The position numbers were made by a program, and so were the translations under genes. Positions 10,288 to 35,810 of a DNA stretch of 36,573 nucleotides are shown piece by piece. How positions within the stretch are numbered: the stretch's first letter is position 1; every line of letters begins with the position of its first letter. Below the pieces are notes generated by a model. The model saw only the letters and a program-made list of their open reading frames with translations, did not search any database and was not told the origin of the DNA. Source of the DNA: an uncultured Opitutales bacterium (lineage in GTDB: Bacteria > Verrucomicrobiota > Verrucomicrobiia > Opitutales > Intestinicryptomonadaceae). The DNA is taken from the NCBI GenBank assembly GCA_900545715.1, contig URAJ01000023.1:1-36573 (forward strand), read 5' to 3'.

Positions 10288-11271
10288 TTACTGCTTCGAT
10301 ATGGCAAATTGCGGGCATTTGCCGGGAGTGAATTTGTATTTTTCAACGGATGTGTCGTGGCACTTTGCGCACGATTCTGCGGCTGAATTGGAATGCGGGC
10401 TATGGCAAACAACGCACCCCATTCCTTCGTGGGCTCCAACGGGCGTCCTGTCGTCTGAAGTCCGCGCCTGCCGCATCCAGTTTGGCGAGTGGCAGTTGTA
10501 GCAAAGCTTTGAATTCGGGTCTTGCGCCACTTCAACTTCCCTATCTCCGAGATAACGCTTTACTTCCCCAAGTTTGTCCGTTCTGAAATGCGCCTTGTCC
10601 GCGCGCGAATAGAAAGATGTTTTGGGAATCGGACATGAGGGAATGACCGACTTTTCAGAGTTCTCAAATGCCGGAATTTTAGGTTTTTTCGAGTGTATCT
10701 GATGGCATGCCATGCAGGGAATCGCCGGCAAGCCGCGCTGGTTTGGGTCCCTTATTTTCCAGTCGGCGCACTCGCCGCCAAGATCCATCAAGTCGTGGAT
10801 ATTGCCGCCGTAGAACATTCCGTGGCAGCGGAGGCAGTCCCAGTACGGCTTCTCTTGGGCGTTGTGGACTTTGTCCTCAAATATGTTTGCGTAGGTAGTC
10901 GAATGCGCGCCGCTCTTCCACTGGTTGTATTCCGATTCGTGGCACGAGGCGCAGCGCTTCATAATATCAAGGCGCTGGCTTTCCGTGAGTTTTATTTCGG
11001 AATTTTTTACGTCTTTGGCAAAGTGCGACACTACCATTCCAATTTTTTCCTTCAAACTGTGGATACCGTTGGATATTGCGGTTCCGTGGCATTGCACGCA
11101 TGAAACTCCCGCGTGGGCAGAGTCTTTCCACTTCTCGTGGGTCGGCCTAATTTCGTGGCACTGCGCGCATGTGTATTCAGGGTCGGCGGCGTTCCATGAG
11201 GAGTATCCGGCAAATGCGAGGGCGCAAAGGGCGGCTATTGCAATAATGTACGCTAAAAAAATCTTCTTCAT
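10288..11271 (-). CDS. Membrane-anchored octahaem c-type cytochrome of the dehydrogenase operon
   Basis: A 327-residue protein with an N-terminal hydrophobic anchor (residues 4-22) followed by eight CxxCH haem sites: CAQCH, CVQCH, CASCH, CLRCH, CMACH, CYNCH, CVVCH and CAKCH. The start resembles NapC/NirT-type quinol cytochromes, with YTCAQCHEI and WKDSAHAGVSCVQCHG. It is the last gene of a minus-strand operon, 1 bp after the GMC flavoprotein, so it probably takes electrons from that enzyme into the periplasmic or quinone pool. In known gluconate and sorbitol dehydrogenases this position is filled by a three-haem subunit; an eight-haem protein is unusual. A nitrite- or sulfite-reducing role is unlikely from context but not excluded. 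Confidence 0.88.
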   Translation of the reverse strand: MKKIFLAYIIAIAALCALAFAGYSSWNAADPEYTCAQCHEIRPTHEKWKDSAHAGVSCVQCHGTAISNGIHSLKEKIGMVVSHFAKDVKNSEIKLTESQRLDIMKRCASCHESEYNQWKSGAHSTTYANIFEDKVHNAQEKPYWDCLRCHGMFYGGNIHDLMDLGGECADWKIRDPNQRGLPAIPCMACHQIHSKKPKIPAFENSEKSVIPSCPIPKTSFYSRADKAHFRTDKLGEVKRYLGDREVEVAQDPNSKLCYNCHSPNWMRQARTSDDRTPVGAHEGMGCVVCHSPHSNSAAESCAKCHDTSVEKYKFTPGKCPQFAISKQ

Positions 11272-11272
11272 T

Positions 11273-12904: not shown

Positions 12905-12916
12905 TTGAATGCGCGT

Positions 12917-13450
12917 TTAATATCTGTTTTGACCGAGTACATGCGGCATTTCCAGCCCGCACATTTTATACGACATATAGTCTTTATTTCCGCCGTGGCG
13001 CGGCGGCCCGTAAAACCCTTGCATGGTTCGCACGCGCATCTCTTTAAAAAATTCGCGCTGGTTAATTTCCTTCCAATCCTGTTTGTCAAGCGCTCCCGAT
13101 TCCATTTTTTTTAGAAAATCGGTTTGAACATCAAATTCGAGCTCCTGAAAGTTTTTAGAGTAGAGCCTTTGCGAGGCGTTTTGGACAGCCGATATGCCCT
13201 TTTTATAAGTAGGCAGCATTTCTGGATAATATTTGCCGACCCAGTTTTCTATGTAGTTTATGACGCCGGCTTCTGTCGCGCCGCCCCACTGCTCGTCTGC
13301 GGGGACTATTTGTTCCGAAATTGCTATTAAACAGTTTCTCTCGGAATCATCGAATATTTTTGCCGTGCTTCCATTACTTGAGCAGCCGCATATTGCAATT
13401 CCCGCCGATGCAGCCAGCGAGACTTTTAAAAATTCCCTTCTATTCCCCAT
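12917..13450 (-). CDS. Tat-exported gluconate 2-dehydrogenase subunit 3 family protein
   Basis: A 177-residue small subunit, first gene of the dehydrogenase operon. The N-terminus MGNRREFLKVSLAASAGIAI has a twin-arginine motif, and CGCSSNG just after suggests a lipoprotein-type Cys, so the complex may be tethered to the membrane. The body matches the family: ISEQIVPADEQWGGATEAGVINYIE and, near the end, MRVRTMQGFYGPPRHGGN. In this enzyme class the small subunit carries the flavoprotein across the membrane by the Tat route. ATG at 13450 was preferred to a TTG two codons earlier because it places the Arg-Arg pair as usual. Confidence 0.9.
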   Translation of the reverse strand: MGNRREFLKVSLAASAGIAICGCSSNGSTAKIFDDSERNCLIAISEQIVPADEQWGGATEAGVINYIENWVGKYYPEMLPTYKKGISAVQNASQRLYSKNFQELEFDVQTDFLKKMESGALDKQDWKEINQREFFKEMRVRTMQGFYGPPRHGGNKDYMSYKMCGLEMPHVLGQNRY

Positions 13451-13705
13451 AGTCAATCGATTGAGTGCTTGTTTTAAGTGTTAACGTAAACTTTATACTT
13501 TTCAAGCAATTTATCCCGGGAAAATTTTATTTTTAGCGCATTTTTATTCTTATTGAAGGCAGCCTATAAGACAAAACTCTGTATTCATTTGATTTCCCAT
13601 CGATATTTGCGTCTCAATTCAAGCGCTAATCCGCATGCATATATTTTGCCGCTATTTTTGCAAAAATCTGTCCTTAGTGTGGCAATCGCCTGCGACTGTA
13701 AAATG
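13451..13705. promoter_or_regulatory. Upstream region of the dehydrogenase operon
   Basis: The gap before subunit 3 must contain the operon's minus-strand promoter, but no hexamer pair stood out. No coding potential was seen. Confidence 0.35.
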
Positions 13706-19921: not shown

Positions 19922-20887
19922 TTAACTGAAATTTTGCTTAGAGAACTCAATTTTCTCCTCAATTGTAGCGTGGGCATTATCCGGCAAAGACTCTATCAAT
20001 TTCAACCGTTTTAGGAGGCCGCACCCGTTGGCTATTTGTATCGCAAGGCCGGGTCTAGCGTTTAATTCTAAAAGCAGCGGCCCGCGCTTGCTGTCTGTTG
20101 ATATATCGGCTCCAAAATATCCCAATGGAGTCATTGTCGCGCAAAGTGCCGCGAGCCGCAAGTGCTCTTCCCAAAACGGGATTCTCAGTTCAGAAAGGTT
20201 AGCGTTGGTATCCGGGTGGACTTCAACTCTCTTATTATTTTGCGTAGCAAACAACGGAAGCCCAGTTCTTATGCTTATGCCAACACCTATCGCACCTTGA
20301 TGCAAATTGGCTCGCCCGTCGGAAAGTTTTGTGGCAAGCCGTATCATCGACATTATCGGATAGCCTTTAAATACTATTAAACGAACGTCCGGGACGCCCT
20401 GGTAGCTAAAACGACTATATACGTCGGAAAAATCTATGCATCTCTCAAATAGGGCGTAGTCAGGATTGCCGCCCAGACTGTAAAGTCCGCTTAAAATGTT
20501 TGATATATGTTCGTATATAAAGTTGTAGTCGCAGCTTGTGCCGTTTGGTTTATAAAACGTTTTGCCGTCGTGCCGTGTTATTACGAGTATTCCCCGGCCG
20601 CCGCTTCCGTGCCCCGGCTTTATGACGAAATCTGGAACATCTTTGACTATATCAAAAAAGCTTTTTACTTGGAATTGGCAATCAATCGCCCCTACATATT
20701 CGGCGGTCGATACACCGTGCTCTACGGCAAGTTTTTTTGTGCGCAATTTATCGTCAACATCGGGATAGTCCTTGCGGTTGTTGTAGCGCATAATATACGC
20801 GTGGTTGCGCTCATTCATTCCCAAAACCCCATTTTCATGAAGGCTTTTGGGACTGGCAAATTGCGGCAATTTAAAAGAAAACCTCAT
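19922..20887 (-). CDS. RimK-related ATP-grasp ligase (alpha-L-glutamate ligase-like)
   Basis: A 321-residue ATP-grasp enzyme. Family markers are the N-terminal GMNERNHAYIMRYNNRKDYP, the ATP-binding FVIKPGHGSGGRGILVI, and the metal-binding LLLELNARPGLAIQIANGCG. The family is related to RimK, which adds glutamate to ribosomal protein S6, but usually sits with an inactive-transglutaminase membrane protein and a retropepsin-like protease, exactly as here. Its ATG overlaps the stop of the gene before it (ATGA), so translation is coupled. The product, likely an amide bond to a glutamate-type amino acid on an unknown acceptor, is inferred. Confidence 0.9.
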   Translation of the reverse strand: MRFSFKLPQFASPKSLHENGVLGMNERNHAYIMRYNNRKDYPDVDDKLRTKKLAVEHGVSTAEYVGAIDCQFQVKSFFDIVKDVPDFVIKPGHGSGGRGILVITRHDGKTFYKPNGTSCDYNFIYEHISNILSGLYSLGGNPDYALFERCIDFSDVYSRFSYQGVPDVRLIVFKGYPIMSMIRLATKLSDGRANLHQGAIGVGISIRTGLPLFATQNNKRVEVHPDTNANLSELRIPFWEEHLRLAALCATMTPLGYFGADISTDSKRGPLLLELNARPGLAIQIANGCGLLKRLKLIESLPDNAHATIEEKIEFSKQNFS

Positions 20888-22425
20888 TTGTTTACCAAAG
20901 ATTTAAACCTTAACAATTCGGTCAACCTATATCCGGTATAGGTCCCCAAAAGTAGGATTATTCCAAGTATTGCAAGATTCAGCTCTGCAAAAGTGTATAA
21001 CAAGTACTGCAAATAGGAATTTGACAGCACAAGATAGCTAAATACGGCAGTGATAAGGCTTGCCGCAAGCTGCTTTAACGTGTGTCCCGCCCCGTCTTCC
21101 TCCCAAATTGTCGAGGCCCTTTCTATTGTCCAAGCGATAATAATCAGGGGGAAAAACGTAACGCTCATAAAATCCGGGAGCTTCAGAAGATTACCGGCAA
21201 TACTTATAGCCTGCATGATAAGTATAACAACCACAACAACCGCAGATATTCGTGGGACCATCAATAAATTAAGCTTTGAAAGCCAAAATCTTATCGATAA
21301 CCCCACAGTGAGGATAATGCAAAAACAAAGCAGCCCAGAAACAAGATTCATTTCTAAAAAAGCCATTGCAATCAGAACAGGCATAAAAGTTCCCATTGTC
21401 TGTATCCCGATTATATTGCGGGCTATTACTATAAAAAGGATTGCGAGTGGCAAAAGCGTAAGTCGCTTGAAAACGTTTTGCTCTGATGCGGGAAGCGAAA
21501 ACAAAGAGAAATCGGAAAGCTTTTGTTTGCCTATTACGTCGGCTCTGATTCTGTTCAGAGAAGCTGCGCCCTGCGGAACTTTTGTGACTGAAAATCTAAG
21601 GGAAGAATTTGACGCTCCAGATATTTCGTATAGAGATTTACCCGAACGCTGTAAGACCAAAAAGTCCTTGGGCTTTTGTTCTTCGCCTGAGCTGGGTTTA
21701 AACATCACCCAAGAGTCTCCGCACCAAACCTCCAAGAATTGCGCTGCTTGGGAACTGCGAGACTGTTCGTTTAAAAATATTCCCCTTACAATCCTTGCCG
21801 GTATTTTTTTTAGCGACAAAATCAAGTATGCGGCTTCAAGCGTCCCAGAAGAACCGCTCAGCTGTGAAAACATTTTCTTTTGATCCGGAGGCATTGCTGC
21901 AAGCTCCCTAAAAAGAGCCGGCGCAAAATTCCGCGATGTCATATTGCCTTCAGGATCGATTTTTTTTACGAGCTTTGCTGCGGCGAGCTTTATTTCGTCG
22001 GAAACTTGCGGATATTTTTCGTTTTGAGGGGGAAGGTTAAAGTCCGTATTTTCCGTACCTACCGATTTCGGGATTATTTTAAATCTGTACGATATATTTT
22101 GCCATCCGTTGTTTGTGCAGACAAATTCAGCCGCCGCCCTTGCAAGACCGTTTTCCCTTATTATTTTAAATCTTGGATCTCCGGCCGGATCACGTCCAAA
22201 ATAATATAAAGAGGTTTTTTCGGGGAGAGATATACTAAGCTTAACATTAGCCCCTTTTTTTGCCTCAAAAGCGAGAGTTGCATCTGCCTGATAGTAGAAA
22301 GACGCTTTATCGTTAAAGCTGAAATCAAGGTATTTTACCTTTGCAAAGGTGATTGCAATTGCCACGGCGCAAAGGATTGCCGTAAGCCAATATACAGTTC
22401 GGCGGCTATGTTTACTATCTTGCAT
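20884..22425 (-). CDS. Inactive transglutaminase-like domain fused to seven-transmembrane protein
   Basis: A 513-residue membrane protein. One N-terminal helix (TVYWLTAILCAVAIAITFA) leads to a large extracytoplasmic region with a transglutaminase-like core (AAYLILSLKKIPARIVRGIFL) that lacks a clear Cys-His-Asp triad; this family is named for that loss. The C-terminal about 200 residues form seven helices, beginning around VFKRLTLLPLAILFIVIARN. It belongs with the ATP-grasp ligase (4-bp overlap) and the retropepsin-like lipoprotein (4-bp gap) encoded next to it. The three probably form one envelope system whose substrate is unknown from sequence. Confidence 0.88.
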   Translation of the reverse strand: MQDSKHSRRTVYWLTAILCAVAIAITFAKVKYLDFSFNDKASFYYQADATLAFEAKKGANVKLSISLPEKTSLYYFGRDPAGDPRFKIIRENGLARAAAEFVCTNNGWQNISYRFKIIPKSVGTENTDFNLPPQNEKYPQVSDEIKLAAAKLVKKIDPEGNMTSRNFAPALFRELAAMPPDQKKMFSQLSGSSGTLEAAYLILSLKKIPARIVRGIFLNEQSRSSQAAQFLEVWCGDSWVMFKPSSGEEQKPKDFLVLQRSGKSLYEISGASNSSLRFSVTKVPQGAASLNRIRADVIGKQKLSDFSLFSLPASEQNVFKRLTLLPLAILFIVIARNIIGIQTMGTFMPVLIAMAFLEMNLVSGLLCFCIILTVGLSIRFWLSKLNLLMVPRISAVVVVVILIMQAISIAGNLLKLPDFMSVTFFPLIIIAWTIERASTIWEEDGAGHTLKQLAASLITAVFSYLVLSNSYLQYLLYTFAELNLAILGIILLLGTYTGYRLTELLRFKSLVNK

Positions 22426-22429
22426 ATGG

Positions 22430-23041
22430 CTATATTGAATTTTTACGTGTTACGTCAACAACTGCTATCCCGCTTAGGAGATTTCTGCCTAATAAGACTT
22501 GATAGTCAAACGAGCTCCTATCAGTAAGAGTAAATTCGCGTTCGAGCGTCAGATGCCCAATTTTCACAGTTAACATTACAGAAAAGCGCTGCTGATCCGG
22601 CATGCCGTGCCGCTTTATGGGAACAATTCTTACGACCGGAAGCTCAAAACTTTTTTGTTCGCCCGATGTGCGCGATTTTATCTTAAACGAGACCCATTTG
22701 CGCCCGTCGCGCTCAAAATTCTTTATGTCGAAAGCGTCAATGGAGCAAGTTGTGGCGCCCGTGTTCACTCTCGCCTCAAAGCTCGACTTAAAATCGGGCA
22801 GACGCACAGTCTCAACTTCACCTATGATTCCTAATGGATATTTTTCTATTTCATGCGCCATGTCAGATTGCTTTCTAACAAATTCTTCAGACTTCTCCGG
22901 TTTTGGTGCATCCAGCGGCATGTCATCGCTTGAGCGTGAATCAGTATCGCTCGAAGCGCATGAGGATACCGCAAACATCAATAAAAAGGCGGGGATAAAT
23001 TTGTAAATTTTTAGCGAAAAATTATTATCGAAAAATTTCAT
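22430..23041 (-). CDS. Retropepsin-like (RimB/DUF785 family) lipoprotein with altered catalytic motif
   Basis: A roughly 203-residue exported protein. The N-terminus has a hydrophobic stretch ending LLMFAVSSCASSD, a likely lipobox, then a Ser/Asp-rich linker. The aspartic-protease-like domain starts LGIIGEVETVRLPDF and carries the flap-type core FEARVNTGATTCSIDA. The family normally has Asp-Thr-Gly-Ala; here it is Asn-Thr-Gly-Ala (codon AAC), so the catalytic Asp is missing. The C-terminal block FDYQVLLGRNLLSGIAVVDV is otherwise intact. It is the first gene of the minus-strand operon with the 7TM protein and ATP-grasp ligase. ATG at 23041 was chosen over a TTG at 23068 because it gives a compact signal peptide; neither has a good ribosome site. 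Confidence 0.82.
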   Translation of the reverse strand: MKFFDNNFSLKIYKFIPAFLLMFAVSSCASSDTDSRSSDDMPLDAPKPEKSEEFVRKQSDMAHEIEKYPLGIIGEVETVRLPDFKSSFEARVNTGATTCSIDAFDIKNFERDGRKWVSFKIKSRTSGEQKSFELPVVRIVPIKRHGMPDQQRFSVMLTVKIGHLTLEREFTLTDRSSFDYQVLLGRNLLSGIAVVDVTRKNSI

Positions 23042-23801
23042 TATATTTGGAGTATGGTTGTTTTTCAATTTCTTACAATCCGTAGGATAGCGTTTCCCGA
23101 TGGGGTATAGGCAGAATAGCGAAAAACCACAAGATTCTGCAATCGGATTTTCAGATTCTCAATATAGCCGCAAAAGAGTCAAGTCTCTACATAGGCGGAA
23201 GCGAGCCATTTTTCAATATTGCACCAAGATTTGCCTGCCGTATTCATGTCAGTATTGCTGAGTAATTAAAATTTTGTTTAAAATGCTTTATATAATTAGA
23301 CGGATTTTAAAAGAATTTGTTTAAGAGTTTTTTTGCATAGCCAAGAAATATTGTAATTCAAGCCCAGCATGGGACATTTCAGAAAATCTATTTGCGAGAG
23401 GAAGCTGGTCTGCCGAACATCCCCCTGCCGTATTTGGCGATTTAATGGATTCCTTATAGCCAAATTATTGCCTTTTAGCAACGGATTTTAGGGGCTTCAA
23501 TATAATAGAAAAATTAAAGAAACTATAAGTGGCTTTCCGATAGTAAAAGTTCAATATGCCTCCAAGCTGTCCAATTTTTACGATAAGATTCACGTCTTTT
23601 GCCGACTTATAAATGAGTTTGCCATTATCCCACTCTCTACAAAAGTAATTTTCGTACTAATTCTCCTTAGGAGATATAAGCTCATTATCCAAGTAGTTGT
23701 GTAATTTTATCATTATGATAATGGAATAGTCAGAAAATAACGCTTGCTTGGATAGTAAATGGTTATAGCATGTACTTATAAAAATCATTAATTCCACTCA
23801 T
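23042..23801. other. Gene-poor divergent region with two coding-like remnants
   Basis: About 760 bp without an intact gene. A plus-strand frame at 23325-23459 has NSSPAWDISENLFARGSW and AEHPPAVFGDLMDSL before its stop. A minus-strand frame at 23465-23656 includes EWDNGKLIYKSAKDVNLIVK. Neither has a start codon, and both look like 3' ends of lost genes meeting tail to tail. A 15-bp palindrome TTATCATTATGATAA lies at 23707-23721, 80 bp before the next gene. Confidence 0.4.
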
Positions 23802-26089: not shown

Positions 26090-26297
26090 AAAAATATAAA
26101 ATAGTTTTCTTCAAAAGATACATCTCTTATTGTTTGCTTTCGCAATTTGGTGCATTTGCAAACATAAGTAGGTTTAAGAAAGTTTGCTTAGGCTGAATTT
26201 CGCCGAAAAAAACTGTTTAACAAATTTTCTAGTTTTATTCATGGTTTATTAGTTATTATACTGGAATAATTTATAAAATAGAATTATCGCGCAAAAT

Positions 26298-26313
26298 GTT
26301 AGAAGAGTCTAAC
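26298..26313 (+). promoter_or_regulatory. Operator 1 (metalloregulator box) before the regulator gene
   Basis: GTTAGA-AGAG-TCTAAC is a perfect 6-bp inverted repeat with a 4-bp spacer, 46 bp before the regulator's ATG. A degenerate tandem copy (CTTAGAAAAGTGCAAT, 26328-26343) follows 30 bp on and shares the flank TTTTCTTG. The same box occurs twice before the porin gene. TTAG-N6-CTAA has the same geometry as the core of DtxR boxes. Confidence 0.8.
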
Positions 26314-26358
26314 TTTCTTCTTGACATCTTAGAAAAGTGCAATTTTCTTGTTCACAAA

Positions 26359-26856
26359 ATGAAAAAAATTAATTTCAGTTTGACTGAGGCCAGAGAGGAT
26401 TATTTGGAAGCAATTTTAATTCTTTCTTCAAAGTCTTCCCGCGTTCGTCCAATAGATATTGCAAAATTAAAGGGCGTCTCGAAGGCCACTGTCTCTGTCA
26501 CAATCTCCACATTGGTAAAAATGGGTTATGTTCAAGCCGAGAATCCCCGTTCGATTACTCTAACTAAAAAAGGGATTGAAGTAGCGGAAAGTGTCTTGAA
26601 AAAACATGAGCTTTTGCTTGGATTTCTAACGGAACATCTTGGTGTTTCTGCTTCGATTGCGCGTGAGGCGGCCTGCAAGATGGAGCATGCAATAGGCCCT
26701 CTAATAGCCGAGAAACTCGCAAAATTCATTTTAAACTTAAGAGATTTGAAAGTTAGGGGCAAACGCCGCCTTCGATTTTATAATTTGCGCGAACTGGGTT
26801 TGAATACTTGCAATAGACGGAAAAGAAAAATTTTTTTGCGAAAAAAAGTTAGATAA
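26359..26856 (+). CDS. DtxR-family metal-dependent repressor, iron-type metal site
   Basis: A 165-residue regulator with an N-terminal winged helix: SLTEAREDYLEAIL, then IDIAKLKGVSKATVSVTISTL (recognition helix) and wing GYVQAENPRSITLT. The dimer/metal domain has HELLLGFL and ACKMEHAIG. Equivalent metal residues are Asp14, Glu17, His83, Cys106, Glu109 and His110. DtxR/IdeR have Cys-x-x-Glu-His here, whereas MntR has Glu-x-x-Glu-His, so iron sensing is favoured. There is no SH3-like third domain; instead a basic tail (about 35 residues, CNRRKRKIFLRKK) ends inside operator 2. ATG at 26359 was chosen because the upstream in-frame ATG at 26296 would put operator 1 inside the gene. Confidence 0.88.
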   Translation: MKKINFSLTEAREDYLEAILILSSKSSRVRPIDIAKLKGVSKATVSVTISTLVKMGYVQAENPRSITLTKKGIEVAESVLKKHELLLGFLTEHLGVSASIAREAACKMEHAIGPLIAEKLAKFILNLRDLKVRGKRRLRFYNLRELGLNTCNRRKRKIFLRKKVR

Positions 26857-26863
26857 GTCTAAC
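26848..26863 (+). promoter_or_regulatory. Operator 2, overlapping the regulator stop codon
   Basis: GTTAGA-TAAG-TCTAAC, the same inverted repeat as operator 1. The TAA stop of the regulator (26854-26856) lies inside it. It is 75 bp before operator 3, and a possible promoter (TTGAAC 26885-26890, TAAATT 26907-26912, 16-bp spacing) lies between them. Confidence 0.85.
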
Positions 26864-26922: not shown

Positions 26923-26938
26923 GTTAGATAAGTCTAAC
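26923..26938 (+). promoter_or_regulatory. Operator 3, just upstream of the porin gene
   Basis: GTTAGA-TAAG-TCTAAC, identical to operator 2 including the spacer and the AA before it, 21 bp before the porin ATG. Two identical boxes flank the presumed promoter, suited to strong repression when metal is plentiful. Confidence 0.87.
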
Positions 26939-26959: not shown

Positions 26960-28207
26960 ATGAAACTGATAAAGACAACAAACACCGCTATTAGCGGAAT
27001 TACAATGCTCGCCTCTTGCGTTTTTGCGCAAGAAGCCTCAACACAGCCCGCGCCGGAAAAAATCGAGTCGTGGATGGATAGGGAGAGCCTATTTATTGCC
27101 TCGGCAAGCGACGACGTCTCAAAAAAGACGGGGTTTACCCCCTCTTTGAATTGGACGGGAGAGGTCTGGGGCAATGTTTCGGACGGCAGGAATATTCACA
27201 CATTGGCGGACTCGCTCTTTACTTTGGGCTTCGAGCAGGACTTGTCTGCATTGGCGCACAAAGAGGGCTGGGGCAGAATAGGGCTTAGCGCCTTCTACTA
27301 CACCCAGACAAACGGCGGCGAGCTTGGCGGCTTCGATTCCTCGCAAGGCTCTTTTAGCAACATAGTTGCGGGCGATATGGCCAGGGTTTTTGAAATTTAC
27401 TACGCAAACGACTTTGAGACCAAATTCGGAAACATAGGCTTTAGAATTGGCCAACTTGCGGCCGACGAAGACTTCATGGGTATGGATTACTCCGACGTAT
27501 TTTTGAATTCATCATTCGGCGCCATGCCAAACGTCGCGCCCGGTCAATTGTTCTCGCAGTATAACGTTGCGACATTGGGGGCGGTAATCTACTATTCGCA
27601 AGGGAATTTTGATGCCACCTTCGGCGTTTATAACGGCAACATAGGGCAGGATATTTCATCTAACAACGGCTTCGATTACAGCAATACTTTCGACACCGTC
27701 GCCCTGTGGTACCAGTTCGGCTACAACTACGAAATAGGCGGCCTTGCGGGGCGCGCGATGTTCGGAGGAAATTATCACAGCGACCCGAGTAAAATTAACT
27801 TCGACGCTATTGATGCGGGCAGCTTCTACTCCTTCTACTTCGGCCTACAACAGTCTTTGCTAAACGACGACGAAGGAAACGCGAAGTTTGGCATTTATAC
27901 CCGCATAGGCTGGGTTCCGAGCAGCAAAGCATCTGACAATAACTTTTATGCAGACTTTGGATTTAATTGGTTTGCGCCCATACCATGCAGAGAAAACGAT
28001 ATATTTGCAGTAGGTTTTTCAGTGATAGAAAACGAGCGCGCTGCCCGGACAGAGTATTCGCATTACGAAGGGGCTCTTGAAATTACCTATCGTTTTCAAA
28101 TTACGCCAGCAATTGCGCTTCAACCGGACTTTCAGATTTTTGTGAATCAGGGCAAAGATTCCAAGGCCGCGTATATAACGGGTGCAAGGCTTGAAGTTAA
28201 CTTCTAG
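26960..28207 (+). CDS. OprB-like outer-membrane porin
   Basis: A 415-residue beta-barrel protein, first gene under the twin operators. The signal peptide ends near SCVFAQEAS. The remainder is a run of amphipathic strands, with GWGRIGLSAFYYTQ, GFRIGQLAADEDFMG and NFDATFGVYNGNIG resembling carbohydrate-selective (OprB) porins. The last residue is Phe (ARLEVNF), the usual barrel-assembly signal. OprB members are best known for sugars, but its place under a metal operator, ahead of iron-uptake genes, suggests passage of metal or metal-chelate here; this is inference. The gap to the imelysin gene is 44 bp. Confidence 0.85.
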   Translation: MKLIKTTNTAISGITMLASCVFAQEASTQPAPEKIESWMDRESLFIASASDDVSKKTGFTPSLNWTGEVWGNVSDGRNIHTLADSLFTLGFEQDLSALAHKEGWGRIGLSAFYYTQTNGGELGGFDSSQGSFSNIVAGDMARVFEIYYANDFETKFGNIGFRIGQLAADEDFMGMDYSDVFLNSSFGAMPNVAPGQLFSQYNVATLGAVIYYSQGNFDATFGVYNGNIGQDISSNNGFDYSNTFDTVALWYQFGYNYEIGGLAGRAMFGGNYHSDPSKINFDAIDAGSFYSFYFGLQQSLLNDDEGNAKFGIYTRIGWVPSSKASDNNFYADFGFNWFAPIPCRENDIFAVGFSVIENERAARTEYSHYEGALEITYRFQITPAIALQPDFQIFVNQGKDSKAAYITGARLEVNF

Positions 28208-28251
28208 CCCAAGTCTAAAAAAACTCTTTAAAAAATTGTTTGGGTAAAAAT

Positions 28252-29367
28252 ATGAAAAGAAAATCTACATACAAAGAAATCTGCAAATTAACATTGGCTG
28301 CGGCGGCAATTGGCGTTTTTTCGGCGTCGGCGGCAGAAGCCGTGGAAATAAAGGACGTGTTGGATAGCTACGTCGAAGCCACAGTGCTTCCGACCTATTC
28401 GCAGATGTCCGATTCCGCCATAGAGTTTAACAAGGCTGTCGCCAAGCTCAAAGAGAGCGCAAGCGACGAAAATCTCGCGAAGGCCGCCGCGGCTTGGAGC
28501 AAGGTTCGCACTTCTTGGGAGCGCAGCGAAGCCTTTTTGTTCGGGCCCGCTGCCTTTGCGAGCTTGGATCCGAATCTCGACTCTTGGCCGCTCGACCAAT
28601 CGCAATTGGACAGCCTGATAAAAGCGATAAACGAAGGGCGTATTTCGATAGATGCCGGGTATGTCAGGGGAGGCTTGGGCGCCGCTTTCAGGGGCTTTCA
28701 CGCGGCGGAGTATCTCCTTTTTAGGGAGGGCAAGGTTCGCAAGGCCGCCGAAATGTCAAAGGGCGAGCTTGAGTATCTTGCGGCACTTGCGCAAGTTCTG
28801 ACGGAGGATTGCGTGGCGCTTGAGTCTTGGTGGAAGGGCGCCGACAAGCTTTCGGAGGGCAAGTCGAAAATTCTTGAAGAGGCTGAAATCGAAACAAACG
28901 GTTCATACGCAAGCGAGATGAAAAATGCAGGCAATACCGGAAGCCGCTACGAATCGCAGAAGGAGGCGATAAGCGAGATTTTCGACGGCTGCATAGACAT
29001 TGTCGACGAATTGGTGGAGGCAAAATTGGGCACGCCCGCAAAGACTCAAAATCCGCTTGAGTGCGAATCTCGCCACAGTGGAACAAGCCTAATAGATGCC
29101 GTCGACAACCTAATAAGCGTCCGCAATTCCTACGAAGGTATAAATTCGAAGGGCGCGAGCCTTTCGGCCTTGGTTTCGGAAAAATCCAAGGAGACCGACG
29201 AACGGGTGAAAGCGTCAATAAGCAGTGCTATAAATAGTGTTAAAGCGCTAAAGGCTCCAATGTTTAAAAATCTCAAGGAAAACAAAGAGGGCTTTAAAGT
29301 TGCCATAGCCGCCTGCGAAGAACTTTCGGAGGCTTTGGGCAAGGCAAAGGAAGTTATATGCGAATAA
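28252..29367 (+). CDS. Imelysin (peptidase M75/EfeO-like) iron-uptake lipoprotein or periplasmic protein
   Basis: A 371-residue exported protein of the imelysin family. The signal peptide ends near FSASAAEA. The family motif GxHxxE is present as RGFHAAEYLLF, and VLPTYSQMSDSA plus WSKVRTSWERSEAFLFGP are typical of the N-terminal helical repeat. Imelysins such as IrpA and EfeO act in iron uptake; proteolytic activity is doubtful. Neighbours (di-haem oxidoreductase next, porin before) match the known imelysin/DUF1111-type clusters of Pseudomonas. ATG at 28252 was preferred to a TTG at 28240. A half-site GTCTAA at 28214 between porin and this gene is too poor to call an operator. Confidence 0.9.
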   Translation: MKRKSTYKEICKLTLAAAAIGVFSASAAEAVEIKDVLDSYVEATVLPTYSQMSDSAIEFNKAVAKLKESASDENLAKAAAAWSKVRTSWERSEAFLFGPAAFASLDPNLDSWPLDQSQLDSLIKAINEGRISIDAGYVRGGLGAAFRGFHAAEYLLFREGKVRKAAEMSKGELEYLAALAQVLTEDCVALESWWKGADKLSEGKSKILEEAEIETNGSYASEMKNAGNTGSRYESQKEAISEIFDGCIDIVDELVEAKLGTPAKTQNPLECESRHSGTSLIDAVDNLISVRNSYEGINSKGASLSALVSEKSKETDERVKASISSAINSVKALKAPMFKNLKENKEGFKVAIAACEELSEALGKAKEVICE

Positions 29368-29397
29368 AACTTGGCTAATTTGCCTATCAATTCGAGT

Positions 29398-29452
29398 TTC
29401 CCGCCGATTGATGGATTATTTCCCGGCGGGAAGCTCCCTCTTTTTTGGAGGG
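29398..29452 (+). promoter_or_regulatory. Two hairpins between imelysin and di-haem gene, second masks the ribosome site
   Basis: Hairpin 1: TTCCCGCCG (29398-29406) with CGGCGGGAA (29424-29432), 9 bp, 17-nt loop. Hairpin 2: CCCTC (29436-29440) with GAGGG (29448-29452). The 3' arm is part of GGAGGG, the Shine-Dalgarno sequence of the gene starting at 29461. This could reduce translation of the downstream gene or cause partial termination, since six T residues lie in the loop. Confidence 0.6.
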
Positions 29453-29460
29453 TCTGCTAG

Positions 29461-31104
29461 ATGTTTACTCTATTTAGAAAATCAATTTTACCTCTATTGC
29501 TCTGTCTGTTTTCGCTATGTCTTTCTTGCTGCGGATATAAAGATGATGAGTTTGCCGCAGAGGGATTCGTGCCAAAGAAAGCGCGGGATTTGAAAATAGA
29601 TCACCCAAAAATTCCGCCTGCCGCCCTCAAGTCCAAAATCAACGGGGAGTCTGCCGGATTTGGCGACATTAAACCAGAGTTCATTAGCCTTTCATGCGTT
29701 GCATGCCATGTAAACGCGAGTGTCGACATGCGCCTGCCCGAAACGAGAAACTCGGACGGAAGCAAGGGCCCCGCATATTATCTCGGCGGAGAGGCTGGCA
29801 CGACTTTTACCTCAAACAGCAAGGCTTTTGAGCAGCCCGCGCCCGCCGTTGTGGAGGCGGGTTTGGAATCCGATTTCAAGCAGGGCGAGGCGATTTTTGA
29901 GGGCAACTTTGTAAGCGACAAGGGCGTGCCTTTTGGGGGACTCGGTCCCACCTACATGAAAACTTCGTGTATCGCCTGCCACCCCGGCTATGGCCGCGCG
30001 CACCGCGTTGAAGATTTTTCAAAAGAGTACGGAAACGGTTACATCGCGACCATCCATAGGCCAGACGGAAGCGTTGTGGAGGGCTACACAGAGATGCTCC
30101 AAACAAACGCGGTAAAACCGTATTTGCCCTACGCAAAGGGCGTAAAAATAACTTGGCATAAGTTTGTCGATAAATACGGCAATCGATATCCCGACGGAAG
30201 TTTTTACAATGATGGCAAGCCTAATGAAGGCGAACTTGTCTATCCGAGCGCAGAGATAATAGAGCCGCTTTTGCCGCTTCCCAAAGACTACAAAGTTTCG
30301 ATAGAGTCGACAATAGGGATTTACGGCACGGGGCTTCTCGACGCCATACCCGACGAGGCTATTTTGGCCGAGTACCGCCGCCAGCACGCGCTTGCTGGGC
30401 CCGTCAAGGGCGTTCACGGAAATTGGATTTACGACCAAAAAAGCAGGCGCAAGCGACTTGGCAAATTCACTTGGCACTGTTCGCGCGCCACTCTTGACGA
30501 CGGTCCGGGCTCAAACGGAATTTACAACACTACAAACGTCGCGCGCGCCGACAGGCGTGAACTTTATGGAACGAGACAGTGGCTTGAAAAACACGAGAGT
30601 TTGGGCATAGACGTAAGCGCGTTTAAAAAGGCGCAAGATCCCGAATTTTCGATGGAGGATTTTGAAAAATTCATGGTCTGGCACCGCGGCTTGGCTGTTC
30701 CCGCCGCCAGAAATTTGGACAGGCCCGAGGTTCTTGCGGGGCGCGAAACCTTCTATAAAATCGGCTGCGCAAGCTGCCACAAGCCGGAGTGGACGACGGG
30801 CGAATACGCGCCTTTTAAGCCCTATTCCGGGCAGATTATCCGCCCCTATACGGATTTGCTAATGCACGACATGGGCGAGGAAAACAGGGGGAGATTCCGC
30901 ACCTACCGCACGCCGCCGCTGTGGGGGCGCGGGCTTATGCGCAAGACCGCGGGGCACAGCGATATGTTTCACGACCTTCGCGCCCGCAACTTTGAGGAGG
31001 CCATACTATGGCACTTCGGCGAGGCCGAGTTTGCGCGCGAGCTTTTCAGAAATTTAAATGAGCAAAAGCGCGCGCAGCTCATAAAATTTTTAAAATCACT
31101 TTAA
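29461..31104 (+). CDS. Di-haem oxidoreductase family (DUF1111/DHOR-like) c-type cytochrome
   Basis: A 547-residue exported cytochrome. A hydrophobic signal ends LCLSCCGYKDD; a lipid-attached Cys is possible but the box is not ideal. Three CxxCH haem sites are seen: CVACH (from residue 79), CIACH (170) and CASCH (about 436). GGLGPTYMKTSCIACHPGYG and YRTPPLWGRGL are typical of the di-haem oxidoreductase family. Two sites would be the norm; the first CVACH is extra or replaces another ligand. The family often sits next to imelysin in iron-responsive operons, as here, and may be a periplasmic electron carrier or peroxidase-like enzyme in iron oxidation or release. Confidence 0.88.
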   Translation: MFTLFRKSILPLLLCLFSLCLSCCGYKDDEFAAEGFVPKKARDLKIDHPKIPPAALKSKINGESAGFGDIKPEFISLSCVACHVNASVDMRLPETRNSDGSKGPAYYLGGEAGTTFTSNSKAFEQPAPAVVEAGLESDFKQGEAIFEGNFVSDKGVPFGGLGPTYMKTSCIACHPGYGRAHRVEDFSKEYGNGYIATIHRPDGSVVEGYTEMLQTNAVKPYLPYAKGVKITWHKFVDKYGNRYPDGSFYNDGKPNEGELVYPSAEIIEPLLPLPKDYKVSIESTIGIYGTGLLDAIPDEAILAEYRRQHALAGPVKGVHGNWIYDQKSRRKRLGKFTWHCSRATLDDGPGSNGIYNTTNVARADRRELYGTRQWLEKHESLGIDVSAFKKAQDPEFSMEDFEKFMVWHRGLAVPAARNLDRPEVLAGRETFYKIGCASCHKPEWTTGEYAPFKPYSGQIIRPYTDLLMHDMGEENRGRFRTYRTPPLWGRGLMRKTAGHSDMFHDLRARNFEEAILWHFGEAEFARELFRNLNEQKRAQLIKFLKSL

Positions 31105-31135
31105 AAGCAAATCTATACACAAGGCATTTAAAATT

Positions 31136-32194
31136 ATGGAAAATTTCAGCGCAAAAAAATTGCCTCTTTCGGGAGGAAGGCAAATCTATTTCTTTTCGGC
31201 ATCGGCGGAGGGTTTGGAAGATGCAAAGGCGCATTTTGACGCCCTTAATTCAATTTCCAAAATGCGCCTTGTAGGGCCTGAGCTGTATGCGGCTTGCGAG
31301 TTGCCGCTCTTTCAAAAGAAGTCCTCGGGCGAATTTTTATTTTTGGGGACCGAAGTTGGAGGCGGCTATCGCGGTCTTCAATGTTGTTTGGTTTCGGAGG
31401 ATATTTCAAAAGAGATTGTCTTTGAAGGGCGAAGAGTGGGGCTTTGCTTTGAGGACGATTTTGCGCGCTACGCGTTACTTGGAGGAATTTTTCCCGAGGA
31501 TATTCGGGCGTGCAAAGAGGCTCAAACTTCAAGCGTTTTTGAGAGCATAGAGGCGGCTTTGGGCGGGGTCGGAATGGATTTTTCAAACATTGTGCGCACA
31601 TGGTTTTACAACGACAATATTTTGGATTGGTACGAAACTTTTAACGGGGCTAGAGATTCCTTCTTTGAGTCGCGCAAGGTGTTTTCGGGATTGGTTCCCG
31701 CAAGCACCGGCATAGGCTCCCGCAACGCGCGCGGGGCGGCCTTGGCGGCGCGCGCCTTTGCCGTAAAGCCGAAGTCTGAGCTGGTGAAAATTTGCGAGGT
31801 TGAATCGCCCTTGCAGTGTTCGGCGCGCGATTACAAAAGTTCCTTCAGCAGAGCCGTGGAATTGGCGCACCCGAATTTCAGGCATTTAATTGTTTCCGGA
31901 ACAGCCGGCATAGAGTACGGAGGGAAAAGCGCCTTTGTCGGAGACTTAGACCGGCAGATAAATTTATCGCTTGACGTCGCGGAGGCTATTTTAAAATCGC
32001 GCGGCATGGATTGGGACGACACCCTGCGGGCGGTCGCCTATATCAAGGATTTTTCATGTGCGGGCGAATTTAGAAAAATTCAAAAAAAACGCGGACTTGA
32101 AAAATTGCCATGTGTAGCAATTCAAGCCGACGTGTGCCGAGACGATCTGCTCTTTGAAATCGAGCTTGACGCTGGGATTGCTCTAAAAGTTTAG
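31136..32194 (+). CDS. Chorismatase-like (FkbO/Hyg5-type) tandem RidA-fold protein
   Basis: A 352-residue protein made of two YjgF/RidA-like halves. Blocks RTWFYNDNILDWYETFN and PASTGIGSRNARGAAL, then LIVSGTAGIEYGGKSAFVGD and ADVCRDDLLFEIELD, match the layout of chorismate-converting enzymes FkbO and Hyg5, which cut chorismate to hydroxybenzoates or dihydroxy-cyclohexadiene acids. The Cys-Arg and Glu of the last block are conserved there as well. It follows the di-haem gene by 31 bp and precedes the iron-chelate transporter by 9 bp, so a small aromatic acid that binds or helps mobilise iron is an attractive guess. A simpler RidA-type deaminase remains possible. Confidence 0.62.
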   Translation: MENFSAKKLPLSGGRQIYFFSASAEGLEDAKAHFDALNSISKMRLVGPELYAACELPLFQKKSSGEFLFLGTEVGGGYRGLQCCLVSEDISKEIVFEGRRVGLCFEDDFARYALLGGIFPEDIRACKEAQTSSVFESIEAALGGVGMDFSNIVRTWFYNDNILDWYETFNGARDSFFESRKVFSGLVPASTGIGSRNARGAALAARAFAVKPKSELVKICEVESPLQCSARDYKSSFSRAVELAHPNFRHLIVSGTAGIEYGGKSAFVGDLDRQINLSLDVAEAILKSRGMDWDDTLRAVAYIKDFSCAGEFRKIQKKRGLEKLPCVAIQADVCRDDLLFEIELDAGIALKV

Positions 32195-32203
32195 ATATTT
32201 GCA

Positions 32204-33157
32204 ATGTTCGTGCCGCTATTACAAATTTTGATATTGGCAGCGTGTTCGTTTTGCTCGCTCTTTGTCGGGGTTGCCGACATATCTCCGCTTGATTTGTTTA
32301 ACTTGAGCCGGGAGCAAAGCGGGATCTTTTTTGCCGGCAGAATCCCCCGCCTTTGCAGCATACTTGTTGCAGGCTCCAGCCTGGCGGTTGCGGGGCTTAT
32401 AATGCAAAGAATTATGCAAAATAAATTCGTATCGCCGACGACGGCTGGCACGATGCAGTGGTGTAAATTGGGAGTTATGACAGCCGTGGTTTGCCTGCCG
32501 GGGGCAAGCCCGATTTTGCGTGTGGGAGCGGCTTTTGCGGTGTCGCTATTCGGAACTTTTTTATTCTTGGCGATAGTGAATAAACTGCGCAGCCAAAGCG
32601 CGGTTTTAGTCCCGCTTGTGGGTATAATGCTCGGCTCGGTAGTAGATGCGGGAGCGACATTCTTTGCGTACAAGTTCGACATAATTCAGAATATGGCCTC
32701 ATGGCTTCAGGGTAATTTCTCGCTTGTGATTGCGGGCAAATACGAGCTTTTGTACCTGAGCGTCCCATTAATGTTTTTGGCATATTTTTACGCGGATTAT
32801 TTTACAATAGCCGGAATGGGCAGAAGTACGGCATCTTCACTGGGGTTAAATCACACTCTCATTGTAAACGGGGGGCTTGTTATAATTGCGGTTGTAAGCT
32901 CCGCAAGCGTTGTGGGGGTGGGCAACATACCTTTTGTGGGGCTTATAGTTCCAAACGTTCTGGCAATTTTTAAAGGGGACAACGTAAAAAATATTTTGTG
33001 GGACTGCGCGTGGCTAGGCGCGTTTCTTGTTCTAATTTGCGACATTGCCGGGAGGCTGATAATATTCCCCTATGAAATTCCGATAGGGATAATACTCGGC
33101 GTTGCGGGGGCTGCGGTATTTTTGGTTTTAATAAGAAGCGGGAGGAGCTATGTGTAA
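32204..33157 (+). CDS. Iron-chelate ABC transporter permease (FatD/CeuB-like, FecCD family)
   Basis: A 317-residue inner-membrane permease with about eight or nine helices. The FecCD block FFAGRIPRLCSILVAGSSLAVAG near residue 44 and GLIMQRIMQNKFVSPTTAG are diagnostic; GLIVPNVLAIFKGDNVK near the C-terminus contacts the ATPase. The family forms a heterodimer with the next gene's product. Start ATG at 32204 is 9 bp after the chorismatase-like gene. The 3' end overlaps the second permease by 8 bp, showing tight coupling. The substrate is a ferric siderophore or other chelate; which one is unknown. Confidence 0.92.
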   Translation: MFVPLLQILILAACSFCSLFVGVADISPLDLFNLSREQSGIFFAGRIPRLCSILVAGSSLAVAGLIMQRIMQNKFVSPTTAGTMQWCKLGVMTAVVCLPGASPILRVGAAFAVSLFGTFLFLAIVNKLRSQSAVLVPLVGIMLGSVVDAGATFFAYKFDIIQNMASWLQGNFSLVIAGKYELLYLSVPLMFLAYFYADYFTIAGMGRSTASSLGLNHTLIVNGGLVIIAVVSSASVVGVGNIPFVGLIVPNVLAIFKGDNVKNILWDCAWLGAFLVLICDIAGRLIIFPYEIPIGIILGVAGAAVFLVLIRSGRSYV

Positions 33158-34112
33158 GAGGTCTTTTGCAAAGACTTTTGCGATTCTTGGTATCTTCGCG
33201 CTAGTGCTTGCGTCCTTGTATATCTTCGAAGGGTTGGGCGCGCGCGAAAATTGGGGCTACAATATTTCAAGGAGGGCCGACATACTTGTTGCGATAAGCA
33301 TTGTGGCGTGCGCGGTCGGGGTATCGTCCATAATATTTCAGACCATAACTTCAAACCGTATTCTCACGCCCGGAATAATGGGCTTGGACAACCTGTATCT
33401 TTTCACACAAACTATCATAATCTATTTTTTTAGTTCGGACAACTCCGGGATAATGAGTGGAGGTCTTGATTTTTTCCTGACACTAATTCTGATGTTAGTA
33501 CTTTCGATTGGACTTTACCTTTACATATTCAAGTCAAATTCTGGCGACGTATTTTTTGTGGTTCTGACGGGGCTTGTGTTCGGCATAGGATTTGGGGGGA
33601 TGTCCAATTTTATGCAGGTAATAATAGACCCGAGCGAATTTTCAATATTGGAAGGCAGAATGTTTGCGAGCTTTAACAAGATAAATTTGCCTCTTATGGG
33701 CATAAGCGGATTGATTGTGCTTTTCGCTTTTCTTTGGCTTTTCTCGGACTTTGACAAATTCGACGCCATTACTCTTGGCCGCGACAGTGCTGTAAGTTTG
33801 GGCGTCGAGTACGACAAAGTTGTATTAAAGAGCCTTGCCGCCGTTTCGCTGTTTACCTGCGCATCGACCGTATTGGTGGGGCCCGTAACTTTTCTAGGCA
33901 TAATAATTGCAAGTATTACAAGATTTATATTTCCGACATACAAGCATTCGGTACTGCTTTGGGGGTCGATTTTAGTCGGGATAATAGCGCTTGTTTTCGG
34001 AATGCTTGCGACGGAGCGGGTTTTGCAATTTTCAGTTCCGCTTAGCGTAATAATAAACTTTGTCGGCGGAATTTATTTTATCTATTTGGTGCTAAAAGTT
34101 AAACGCGTATGA
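33150..34112 (+). CDS. Iron-chelate ABC transporter permease (FatC/CeuC-like)
   Basis: A 320-residue second permease subunit with about nine helices. GVSSIIFQTITSNRILTPG and ATERVLQFSVPLSVIINFVGG are FecCD-family landmarks, and VGPVTFLGIIIASITRFIF is the segment facing the ATPase. The start has GGGAGGAGCT just before it, a strong ribosome site inside the previous gene. The stop overlaps the ATPase start (ATGA). Confidence 0.92.
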   Translation: MCKRSFAKTFAILGIFALVLASLYIFEGLGARENWGYNISRRADILVAISIVACAVGVSSIIFQTITSNRILTPGIMGLDNLYLFTQTIIIYFFSSDNSGIMSGGLDFFLTLILMLVLSIGLYLYIFKSNSGDVFFVVLTGLVFGIGFGGMSNFMQVIIDPSEFSILEGRMFASFNKINLPLMGISGLIVLFAFLWLFSDFDKFDAITLGRDSAVSLGVEYDKVVLKSLAAVSLFTCASTVLVGPVTFLGIIIASITRFIFPTYKHSVLLWGSILVGIIALVFGMLATERVLQFSVPLSVIINFVGGIYFIYLVLKVKRV

Positions 34113-34867
34113 TTTCCACTGAAAGTCTCTCAAAAAAATACGGGGAAAAATTCGTGCTGAAAGAAGTTTCCGCGAGTTTGCCCGAAAACAAGATTACAGC
34201 CTTCATAGGCTGCAACGGCGCCGGGAAAAGCACGATGCTAAATATAATAAGCCGCCTCATACCTGCAAGCGAGGGTTGCGCGTTCGTCGACGGCAAAAGA
34301 GTTTCCGAATGGGACAGCCGCAAGCTTGCGCAAAACTTGGCTATACTCGGGCAAAATTCGCATAGATCCGCGCGTATCAGCGTAGAAGAGCTTGTTGCCT
34401 TCGGAAGGTTTCCGCATTCGGGTGGAAGACTGGGGGATCGGGATTTTAAAATGGTTGAGCATGCGCTTAAAATCACTGGCATTGAAGAGTTGCGCGACCG
34501 TTTTATCGACGAGCTTTCCGGGGGGCAGCGGCAGATGGCGCACATAGCAATGTCGATAGCGCAGGACACCAAATACATACTCTTAGACGAACCTCTCAAC
34601 AATCTCGATATGTCGCGTTCTGTAAAGATTATGAAGCTTCTTCGGAAGCTTGCGCGCGAGGAGTCAAAGACGATTCTAATAGTCATACACGACATAAATT
34701 TTGTGTCGTTTTACGCCGACCATATTGTGGCGCTGAAGGACGGCAAAATAAGATACGAGGGGGCGGTAGAGGCCGTAATGAAGCCGGAAATACTGAGCGA
34801 TATCTATGGAATGCGAATCGAGATTGAAGAGTACAAGGGAAAGAAAATTTGCGTGTATTATCAATAG
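34109..34867 (+). CDS. Iron-chelate ABC transporter ATP-binding protein (FatE/CeuD-like)
   Basis: A 252-residue ATPase driving the two permeases. Walker A is GCNGAGKST, the signature is LSGGQRQ, Walker B is YILLDEPLNNLD, and the switch His lies in VIHDINF. All motifs are intact. Four-base overlap with the permease gene and a 16-bp gap to the binding-protein gene show a single transcription unit. Confidence 0.94.
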   Translation: MISTESLSKKYGEKFVLKEVSASLPENKITAFIGCNGAGKSTMLNIISRLIPASEGCAFVDGKRVSEWDSRKLAQNLAILGQNSHRSARISVEELVAFGRFPHSGGRLGDRDFKMVEHALKITGIEELRDRFIDELSGGQRQMAHIAMSIAQDTKYILLDEPLNNLDMSRSVKIMKLLRKLAREESKTILIVIHDINFVSFYADHIVALKDGKIRYEGAVEAVMKPEILSDIYGMRIEIEEYKGKKICVYYQ

Positions 34868-34883
34868 TAAGAAAGGGGATATC

Positions 34884-35810
34884 ATGAAATTGGAAAAGAT
34901 AAAAATAGTAAAAATTACAATAGCGCTAGCACTTGGCATTGCGCTGGTTGCGATGTTTTTTAAGGGCGGCAAAAGTTCCGCAACCATAGGCATAGATGGC
35001 GGATTTAAACAAAGTCCCGCGCGCGTCGTCGTGCTTGACTACGGCACGCTCGATACTTTTGATGCGCTTGGCGTGAAAGCAAAACTTGCCGTACCAAAGA
35101 GCTATATGCCGGCCTACCTTTCCAAGTATAATGCGGACGAATATGAAAATGTCGGTGGCGTAAAGGAGTTTAACTTGGAGACCATAAACTCCTTCAAGCC
35201 CGATCTAATCGTGATTTCTGCGCGCCAACAGGATTACGAAAAGAAACTTTCAGAGATTGCGCCCGTTTATTTTGTAAGAACCGCGATTGCCAAAGACCAA
35301 TTTGCCGAGACAAAAAAGAACATAGAATTTTTCGGAAAGCTATTTGAGCGTGAAGAAGCCGCAGCAAATGCGATTTCCGAGCTCGAGATGGCAGTGCGGA
35401 GAGTGCGAGAAAAAGCTTCTAAAAATCCGCTGCGCACGCTTGTTATGATTGCAAACGACGGGAAGCTTTCGGCTTTCGGGTCGGGGTCGCGCTTCGGTTT
35501 TGTTTACGACGCCTTGGGCTTGCCGCAGGCCGACGCTAATATAAAAGTTGGGCGCCACGGACAGCTTGTGAATTTTGAATACATAGCAAAGGTAAATCCC
35601 GATTTAATATTGGTGGTCGATAGATCTGCCGCGATAGGTTCAGGCGCAGACAACACAAAAATATTCGATAATCCAATTGTAGCGGGCACGAATGCCGCCA
35701 AGAGCGGAAGGATAGTGAGACTCGATCCCGAGTGTTGGTACCTTTCTGGCGGCGGAATAGAATCTATGGGGAAAATGATAGCGGAAGTGGAAAGGGCTAT
35801 TTCAAAGTAA
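34884..35810 (+). CDS. Iron-chelate substrate-binding protein (FatB/CeuE-like), membrane-anchored
   Basis: A 308-residue periplasmic binding protein of the ferric-siderophore type, with DYGTLDTFDALGVKAKLAVP, NLETINSFKPDLIVIS and GHGQLVNFEYIAKVNPDLI-like blocks typical of FatB/CeuE. The N-terminus (IKIVKITIALALGIALVAMFF) is a membrane segment without a lipobox Cys, so it is probably anchored as a signal-anchor or cleaved by signal peptidase I. ATG at 34884 has GAAAGGGG upstream, which decides the start over the upstream in-frame ATG inside the ATPase gene. It is the last transporter gene; no clear terminator follows. Confidence 0.92.
   Translation: MKLEKIKIVKITIALALGIALVAMFFKGGKSSATIGIDGGFKQSPARVVVLDYGTLDTFDALGVKAKLAVPKSYMPAYLSKYNADEYENVGGVKEFNLETINSFKPDLIVISARQQDYEKKLSEIAPVYFVRTAIAKDQFAETKKNIEFFGKLFEREEAAANAISELEMAVRRVREKASKNPLRTLVMIANDGKLSAFGSGSRFGFVYDALGLPQADANIKVGRHGQLVNFEYIAKVNPDLILVVDRSAAIGSGADNTKIFDNPIVAGTNAAKSGRIVRLDPECWYLSGGGIESMGKMIAEVERAISK

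Follow-up and report, generated by a model that had tools for sequence, protein, structure and literature searches.

A conserved Opitutales locus joining an OprB-family porin, imelysin, a DHOR haem protein and a chorismatase-fold protein to a CeuE-type importer under a probable iron-responsive DtxR-family operator

A stretch of 36,573 nucleotides from an uncultured Opitutales bacterium (contig URAJ01000023.1, assembly GCA_900545715.1; hereafter the window) was found to carry a run of eight genes encoding an OprB-family porin, an imelysin, a haem protein of the DHOR family, a tandem-Rid protein designated RidL, two FecCD-family permeases, an ATPase and a CeuE/YclQ-type binding protein. The analysis led us to regard this run as a probable DtxR-controlled iron-uptake operon, induced by iron starvation, in which RidL would serve iron acquisition generally. 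The locus is real and conserved, and strong genomic evidence suggests that it is iron-regulated. The assignment of its genes to one iron-uptake unit is supported at the genomic level, because the neighbourhood and the operator are conserved and the same operator precedes FeoB. The pattern of operators is the strongest evidence both for a shared function of the operon genes and for iron as the signal.

The original prediction, made from the letters of the window, described eight same-strand genes with tiny gaps, and the open reading frames (ORFs), their coordinates and their spacing were confirmed (Table 1). The genes were separated, in order, by gaps of 44, 93, 31 and 9 nt, overlaps of 8 and 4 nt and a final gap of 16 nt. 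The probable start of the last gene was placed by eye, versus a mechanical ORF start at 34806. Pfam agreed with each of the protein families named beforehand, the chorismatase N domain being detected only below its cut-off, and none of the ten proteins scanned exceeded the own cut-off of any NCBIfam model. A DtxR/MntR-family gene (ORF 26296-26856, probable ATG chosen by eye) adjoins the operon upstream, just beyond the region first described (26960..35810).

Table 1. Coordinates of the operon, its regulator and associated sequence elements in the window
Feature	Position	Strand	Remarks
Operator 1 (GTTAG-N6-CTAAC)	26298..26313		exact palindrome; ~46 bp before probable DtxR start 26359
DtxR/MntR-family metal-dependent repressor	26359..26856	+	Pfam Fe_dep_repr_C 9.4e-16, Fe_dep_repress 1e-11 (26296 ORF)
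Operator 2	26848..26863		exact palindrome; starts 112 bp before OprB
Operator 3	26923..26938		exact palindrome; starts 37 bp before OprB
OprB-family porin	26960..28207	+	Pfam OprB 1.8e-30; signal peptide by eye
Imelysin (IrpA-like)	28252..29367	+	Pfam Peptidase_M75 1.2e-58
Predicted intra-operon RNA stem-loop, between imelysin and DHOR	29368..29460	+	z -4.67
DHOR tri-haem cytochrome c, probable lipoprotein	29461..31104	+	Pfam DHOR 5.1e-48
RidL, tandem-Rid protein, predicted chorismatase fold	31136..32194	+	Ribonuc_L-PSP 7.9e-14; no signal peptide by eye
FecCD-family permease 1	32204..33157	+	Pfam FecCD 2.5e-61
FecCD-family permease 2	33150..34112	+	Pfam FecCD 4.2e-45
FecE/FepC-type ATPase	34109..34867	+	ABC_tran 5.2e-28; best NCBIfam match FecE 3e-70, under its cut-off
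CeuE/YclQ-type binding protein, His225 + Tyr286	34884..35810	+	Peripla_BP_2 1.2e-36; N-terminal hydrophobic anchor by eye

The metal operators proposed earlier were recovered as three exact palindromes; at up to one mismatch the window contained four matches, a number reached in none of 100 shuffles. Pairs of such sites (<=1 mismatch) were located upstream of OprB in four related loci (L001, L002, L045 and L046) and a single site before DHOR in a fifth (L047); in the first operator scan, these five and the window were the only RidL-bearing loci with sites at this stringency. Scanning five genomes for exact operators yielded 21 sites (four in G001, one in G002, four in G138, five in G157 and seven in G038); the reversed pattern, used as a control, gave a total of seven across these genomes. 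When each site was attributed to the nearest such gene, 20 of the 21 were assignable to OprB, imelysin, DHOR-RidL or FeoB, with the gene no more than approximately 0.55 kb downstream of the site. A second OprB of G001 counts among these genes, and the farthest was in G138, with a short ORF between site and gene. The lone unassigned exact operator (G001 contig 1, 234628; L078 4629) lies beside an ORF resembling RecN by eye. Of these five genomes, four had the operator upstream of FeoB, and the identity of FeoB was confirmed by Pfam for all seven proteins tested. In G038 the cluster is split, and separate operators stand before imelysin (L074), OprB (L077), the DHOR-RidL-importer genes (L047) and both FeoB genes (L075, L076). 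From the association with FeoB, we infer that iron is the operator's metal.

The scan with the RidL protein identified the two closest genome loci at 96% and 60% identity, both in metagenome-assembled genomes of uncultured Opitutales. The gene-neighbourhood check proposed with the original prediction had a positive outcome: the complete order OprB, imelysin, DHOR, RidL, FecCD, FecCD, ATPase and binding protein was kept in four loci, with DtxR next to the operon in L001 and L002 but not in L045 and L046. Shorter versions were also found, comprising only DHOR through binding protein in L047, with the imelysin of this genome (G038) located elsewhere, and only imelysin-DHOR-RidL in L048 (G073). 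In the more distant L049, L050 and L051, DHOR and a distant RidL are accompanied by two imelysins, and L049 and L050 have a further DHOR. In a set of 177 genomes drawn from the order, the match counts (E <= 0.001) were 37 for RidL, 33 for DHOR, 32 for OprB and 15 for imelysin. Eight genomes of this set had a strong imelysin match (E < 1e-30), and in each of them DHOR adjoined RidL. We additionally observed a gene for a very large protein (1370-1383 aa) directly after the iron operon in L045 (1622-5734) and L046 (13537-17688), the L045 copy having a terminal PEP-CTERM motif.

The OprB assignment of the porin was firm (107 bits versus a cut-off of 22.9). For the operator count, a set of 14 OprB genes was assembled from those of the loci and from matches at >=47% identity. 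An operator (<=1 mismatch) preceded all 13 testable members (window, L001, L002, L045, L046, L077, L103, L115 and L121-L125); the locus of the fourteenth (L126) ends too early for a judgement. In six of the 14 loci (L103, L115, L122, L124, L125 and L126), OprB is followed by FeoB on the same strand. These pairs represent a candidate porin-FeoB iron operon in Opitutales, with operators in front wherever the sequence could be read. The occurrence of one OprB subfamily with two different inner-membrane importers is as expected of a general iron port, and a porin route for iron is supported by this context. The cyanobacterial SLH/OprB porin Slr1908 of Synechocystis is described as supporting iron uptake (PMC8707739), providing a precedent for an OprB-domain porin tied to this process; the window protein differs from it in matching OprB only in Pfam, with no SLH domain, and in its linkage to imelysin or FeoB.

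RidL combines its Rid-type match with a sub-threshold match to the FkbO_Hyg5-like N domain (21.7 bits, cut-off 27). Over its full length, the two-domain Rid-type fold matched chorismatases, while single Rid proteins matched the C-terminal half only, and RidL is predicted with high confidence to have a chorismatase fold. The identity to chorismatases is approximately 20%. The chorismatase catalytic Glu334 and the Hyg5-type Gly240 and Cys327 are present in RidL as E341, G255 and C334. RidL therefore shares with the chorismatases FkbO and Hyg5 the whole two-domain fold and the Hyg5-type Gly/Cys/Glu set, but differs from them in substitutions fixed at Hyg5-type invariant positions, in its low identity and in its iron-uptake gene context. 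XanB2 is a further member of the chorismatases. When the C-terminal half was aligned to the RidA-family protein PH0854, a Cys was found at the position of a PH0854 Arg, which we take to be the catalytic Arg105 of RidA. The absence of this Arg from the C-terminal half makes it less likely that RidL is a canonical RidA enamine deaminase; the N-terminal half was inspected by eye only.

The distribution of RidL was examined in a midpoint-rooted tree of 40 RidL rows and Hyg5, prepared without the weakest matches (L040-L042) and the duplicate loci L012 and L013; Hyg5 formed a very long branch whose joining point is not firmly placed. The six FecCD-linked RidLs formed one clade (94/83), which was joined by L017, the RidL of L048 (100/99). 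The RidLs of L049-L051 (rows L037-L039) were placed in a separate starred clade, and thus the link to imelysin and DHOR arises in two places on the tree. A third set consisted of paralogues from 14 loci, 11 of them tree rows (100/100) and three (L118, L119 and L120) assigned by 43-45% identity. DtxR was encoded within five ORFs of the paralogue in seven of these loci (L043, L099, L101, L102, L103, L115 and L120), three of which also had FeoB in the run. In these three, a DtxR-FeoA fusion, an operator, FeoB and the RidL paralogue follow in one run (L099 3931-8026, L115 5356-9417 and L120 3269-9328); in L120, an ORF of 541 residues separates FeoB from RidL. The operators just before FeoB were exact in all three, and exact operators also preceded OprB in L103 and L115. 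Since RidL recurs with different importers, we placed it as a general iron-uptake helper rather than as the ligand maker for one transporter. Among more distant RidL proteins (Planctomycetota and others), the neighbours in the loci scanned were HZS_alpha-like, TPR or PSCyt2/PSD1 proteins, and a constant partner was not evident. RidL-type genes were observed beside HZS_alpha-like genes in L003 (9887-13430) and L004 (4265-7369), and beside PSCyt2/PSD1 (DUF1549/DUF1553) in L053 (7669-10661). The presence of RidL outside iron contexts elsewhere implies broader roles for the family at large. In the operon, RidL would most likely act on chorismate or a close analogue, giving a small aromatic or dienoate that would help to mobilise or reduce iron.

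The binding protein was closest to YclQ of B. subtilis (3gfv, 6.6e-68) and to CeuE relatives. In CeuE, a His and a Tyr are described as binding Fe(III) together with tetradentate catecholates (PMC10394670). The corresponding pair, His225 and Tyr286, was kept in all six binding-protein sequences and points to a ferric bis-catecholate-type complex as the probable imported ligand. The importer resembles the CeuE/YclQ-FecCD systems in its binding protein and retained ligand residues, and differs from them in being joined to a porin, imelysin, DHOR and RidL in a locus without a TonB receptor. In six relatives, no condensation domain of nonribosomal peptide synthetases (NRPS) exceeded the cut-off, G073 giving a single match below it, and IucA/IucC was not detected; a scavenged ligand therefore seems likelier than a home-made one.

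Several observations weigh against an iron-uptake operon with a general role for RidL. Weaker imelysin matches and DHOR lie close together with no RidL match there in G009, G024, G034, G050 and G066, and at a second place in G073. The nine distant RidL loci L003-L011 matched none of the eight other locus proteins, DtxR included (FeoB was not searched there, and Pfam was applied to some neighbours only), and no DtxR or FeoB match was found in the DNA around seven of the 14 paralogue loci (L044, L100, L114 and L116-L119). RidL scored far under the cut-off of the TIGR04444 model (48.5 versus 325 bits; 34.8-58.3 in ten relatives) and shared only 24 of 61 near-invariant Hyg5-type chorismatase columns, eight being gapped and 29 different. 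TonB-dependent receptors were encoded in the relatives, one or two in each of six, together with TonB matches, which indicates that a TonB route exists in relatives and that iron may also enter by ways other than the porin. Finally, the metal is deduced from the occurrence of FeoB, and an MntR-like protein may instead sense manganese.

Among the alternatives, the best surviving one, which we consider possible but clearly less probable than our own reading, assigns RidL to Rid-type housekeeping or iron sparing. The protein would then detoxify enamines or imines, or substitute for an iron-dependent step under scarcity, and would never meet chorismate. This is consistent with the Ribonuc_L-PSP domain, with Planctomycetota and Verrucomicrobiota relatives in other gene contexts and with the many columns invariant in chorismatases at which RidL consistently differs. 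It is opposed by the Cys found in place of the PH0854 Arg and by the full-length fold match to chorismatases, single Rid proteins matching the C-terminal half only.

We consider it unlikely that RidL makes the imported ligand, i.e., a secreted chorismate-derived acid that would bind Fe(III) and return via OprB to the CeuE/FecCD importer. The predicted fold, the Hyg5-type catalytic residues and the position of the RidL gene directly before the importer in the window and five relatives (L001, L002, L045, L046 and L047) would all suit such a role. Nevertheless, paralogues of RidL are found together with FeoB and DtxR where the neighbourhood examined gave no FecCD match, the His/Tyr pair of the binding protein suits two catechols, and the relatives lacked the siderophore assembly genes sought. 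Good Fe(III) ligands have an ortho-diol or salicylate, which, as a matter of general chemistry, known chorismatase products, such as 4-hydroxybenzoate and a cyclohexadiene diol, do not offer. Another of these products is 3-hydroxybenzoate (PMC7170507). The earlier iron-uptake interpretation is supported with respect to the single iron unit and, by context, the porin route, but not with respect to a chorismate-derived acid as the imported iron ligand.

A similarly improbable explanation is that OprB is a mere sugar porin caught in the operon, with iron entering via a TonB receptor. The family is named for carbohydrate-selective porins, and the earlier statement that there is no TonB receptor, uncontradicted within the window, does not extend to the six relatives, each of which has one or two. 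Yet none of the six receptor regions examined (one each in G001, G002, G138 and G157 and two in G038, the two G073 receptors being outside this set) contained an exact operator, an operator at up to one mismatch preceded every testable OprB orthologue, six orthologues are followed by FeoB, and Slr1908 is reported to aid iron uptake in Synechocystis (PMC8707739). A role of the operon in manganese or mixed-metal uptake, controlled by an MntR-like regulator, is very unlikely. Among NCBIfam models, MntR lies closest to the regulator, below its cut-off (78.1 versus 153 bits), but FeoB, imelysin and the operon of the CeuE importer all have the same operator in front.

The iron-uptake operon reading is in line with the families of the two remaining proteins. 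The GxHxxE motif of the imelysin is present as GFHAAE (residues 148-153) and was found in seven of nine imelysins checked, being missing in L049 and L050; the best PDB match was 4ecg, 'putative iron-regulated protein A' (3.5e-36). The adjoining DHOR protein has three CxxCH motifs (residues 79, 170 and 436) and, by eye, a lipobox-like LSCC, an arrangement corresponding to that of imelysin-DHOR iron operons. PDB sequence searches with DHOR and OprB gave no match at E 0.01, and the structure of DHOR predicted from ten sequences was too poor for use (pLDDT 43). Imelysins are described as long linked to iron without a clear job (PMC3143127). Imelysin-DHOR (DUF1111) operons, such as PA4370-PA4373 of P. 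aeruginosa, and EfeUOB are described as likewise placing an imelysin beside a periplasmic haem protein under iron regulation (PMC3143127). The present locus differs in that its gene run also encodes an OprB porin, a FecCD/CeuE importer and a predicted chorismatase-fold enzyme, and in having a DtxR-type regulator and palindrome instead of Fur. No EfeU permease family was identified among the operon genes by Pfam or NCBIfam.

The largest gap of the operon, between imelysin and DHOR, forms a strong predicted long stem-loop, as do the corresponding gaps of L001, L002, L045 and L046 (z from -3.9 to -6.8 over the five loci). In the consensus, nine of 18 pairs were changed on both sides in at least one sequence; the covariation term was small (-0.2 kcal/mol), and several pairs were broken in some sequences. 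The element may separate the expression of porin and imelysin from that of the remaining genes, possibly as a partial terminator or mRNA stabiliser within the operon. Rfam, at gathering thresholds, detected a tRNA and nothing else in the whole window, and promoter and terminator scans remained at chance level. Elsewhere in the window, single runs of ATP-grasp, 7TM-transglutaminase-like and putative zinc-protease genes (19922-23068) and of multihaem cytochrome c, GMC oxidoreductase and gluconate-2-dehydrogenase subunit 3 genes (10288-13456) were observed.

Under the iron-uptake model, the DtxR-family repressor would leave GTTAG-N6-CTAAC when iron is scarce, and the operon would be expressed, in relatives together with FeoB encoded elsewhere in the genome. 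OprB, judging from its linkage, would pass iron or small iron complexes across the outer membrane. Imelysin and the tri-haem DHOR would capture and redox-process periplasmic iron, as in known imelysin/DHOR operons, and the CeuE-like protein and FecCD importer would bring in a ferric bis-catecholate-type complex, probably scavenged, because no siderophore assembly line was found in the relatives. RidL would act as a cytosolic chorismatase-fold enzyme serving iron acquisition in general. A bolder version appears rather doubtful: RidL would be a new chorismatase-fold enzyme type, induced in iron-starved Opitutales, whose chorismate-derived product mobilises or reduces extracellular iron, the iron then entering via a dedicated OprB-type porin to FeoB or the imelysin/DHOR/CeuE route, without a classical siderophore or TonB receptor.

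Imelysin-DHOR and FecCD/CeuE systems have both been described before; what is new, as far as literature searches show, is that they are combined with OprB and, in particular, with a predicted chorismatase-fold enzyme. Among the titles listed in targeted searches, none connected chorismatases or Rid proteins to uptake by imelysin, DHOR or FeoB, and narrow searches, judged on listings, gave no paper on outer-membrane iron passage in Verrucomicrobiota. For DHOR proteins, as for imelysins, a connection with iron has long been noted while their actual function stayed obscure. The operon and its regulon provide a concrete set in which one operator, one porin pairing with FeoB or an ABC (ATP-binding cassette) importer and a chorismatase-fold enzyme beside different iron importers are brought together. 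If RidL does use chorismate, aromatic metabolism would be tied to iron uptake outside siderophore assembly.

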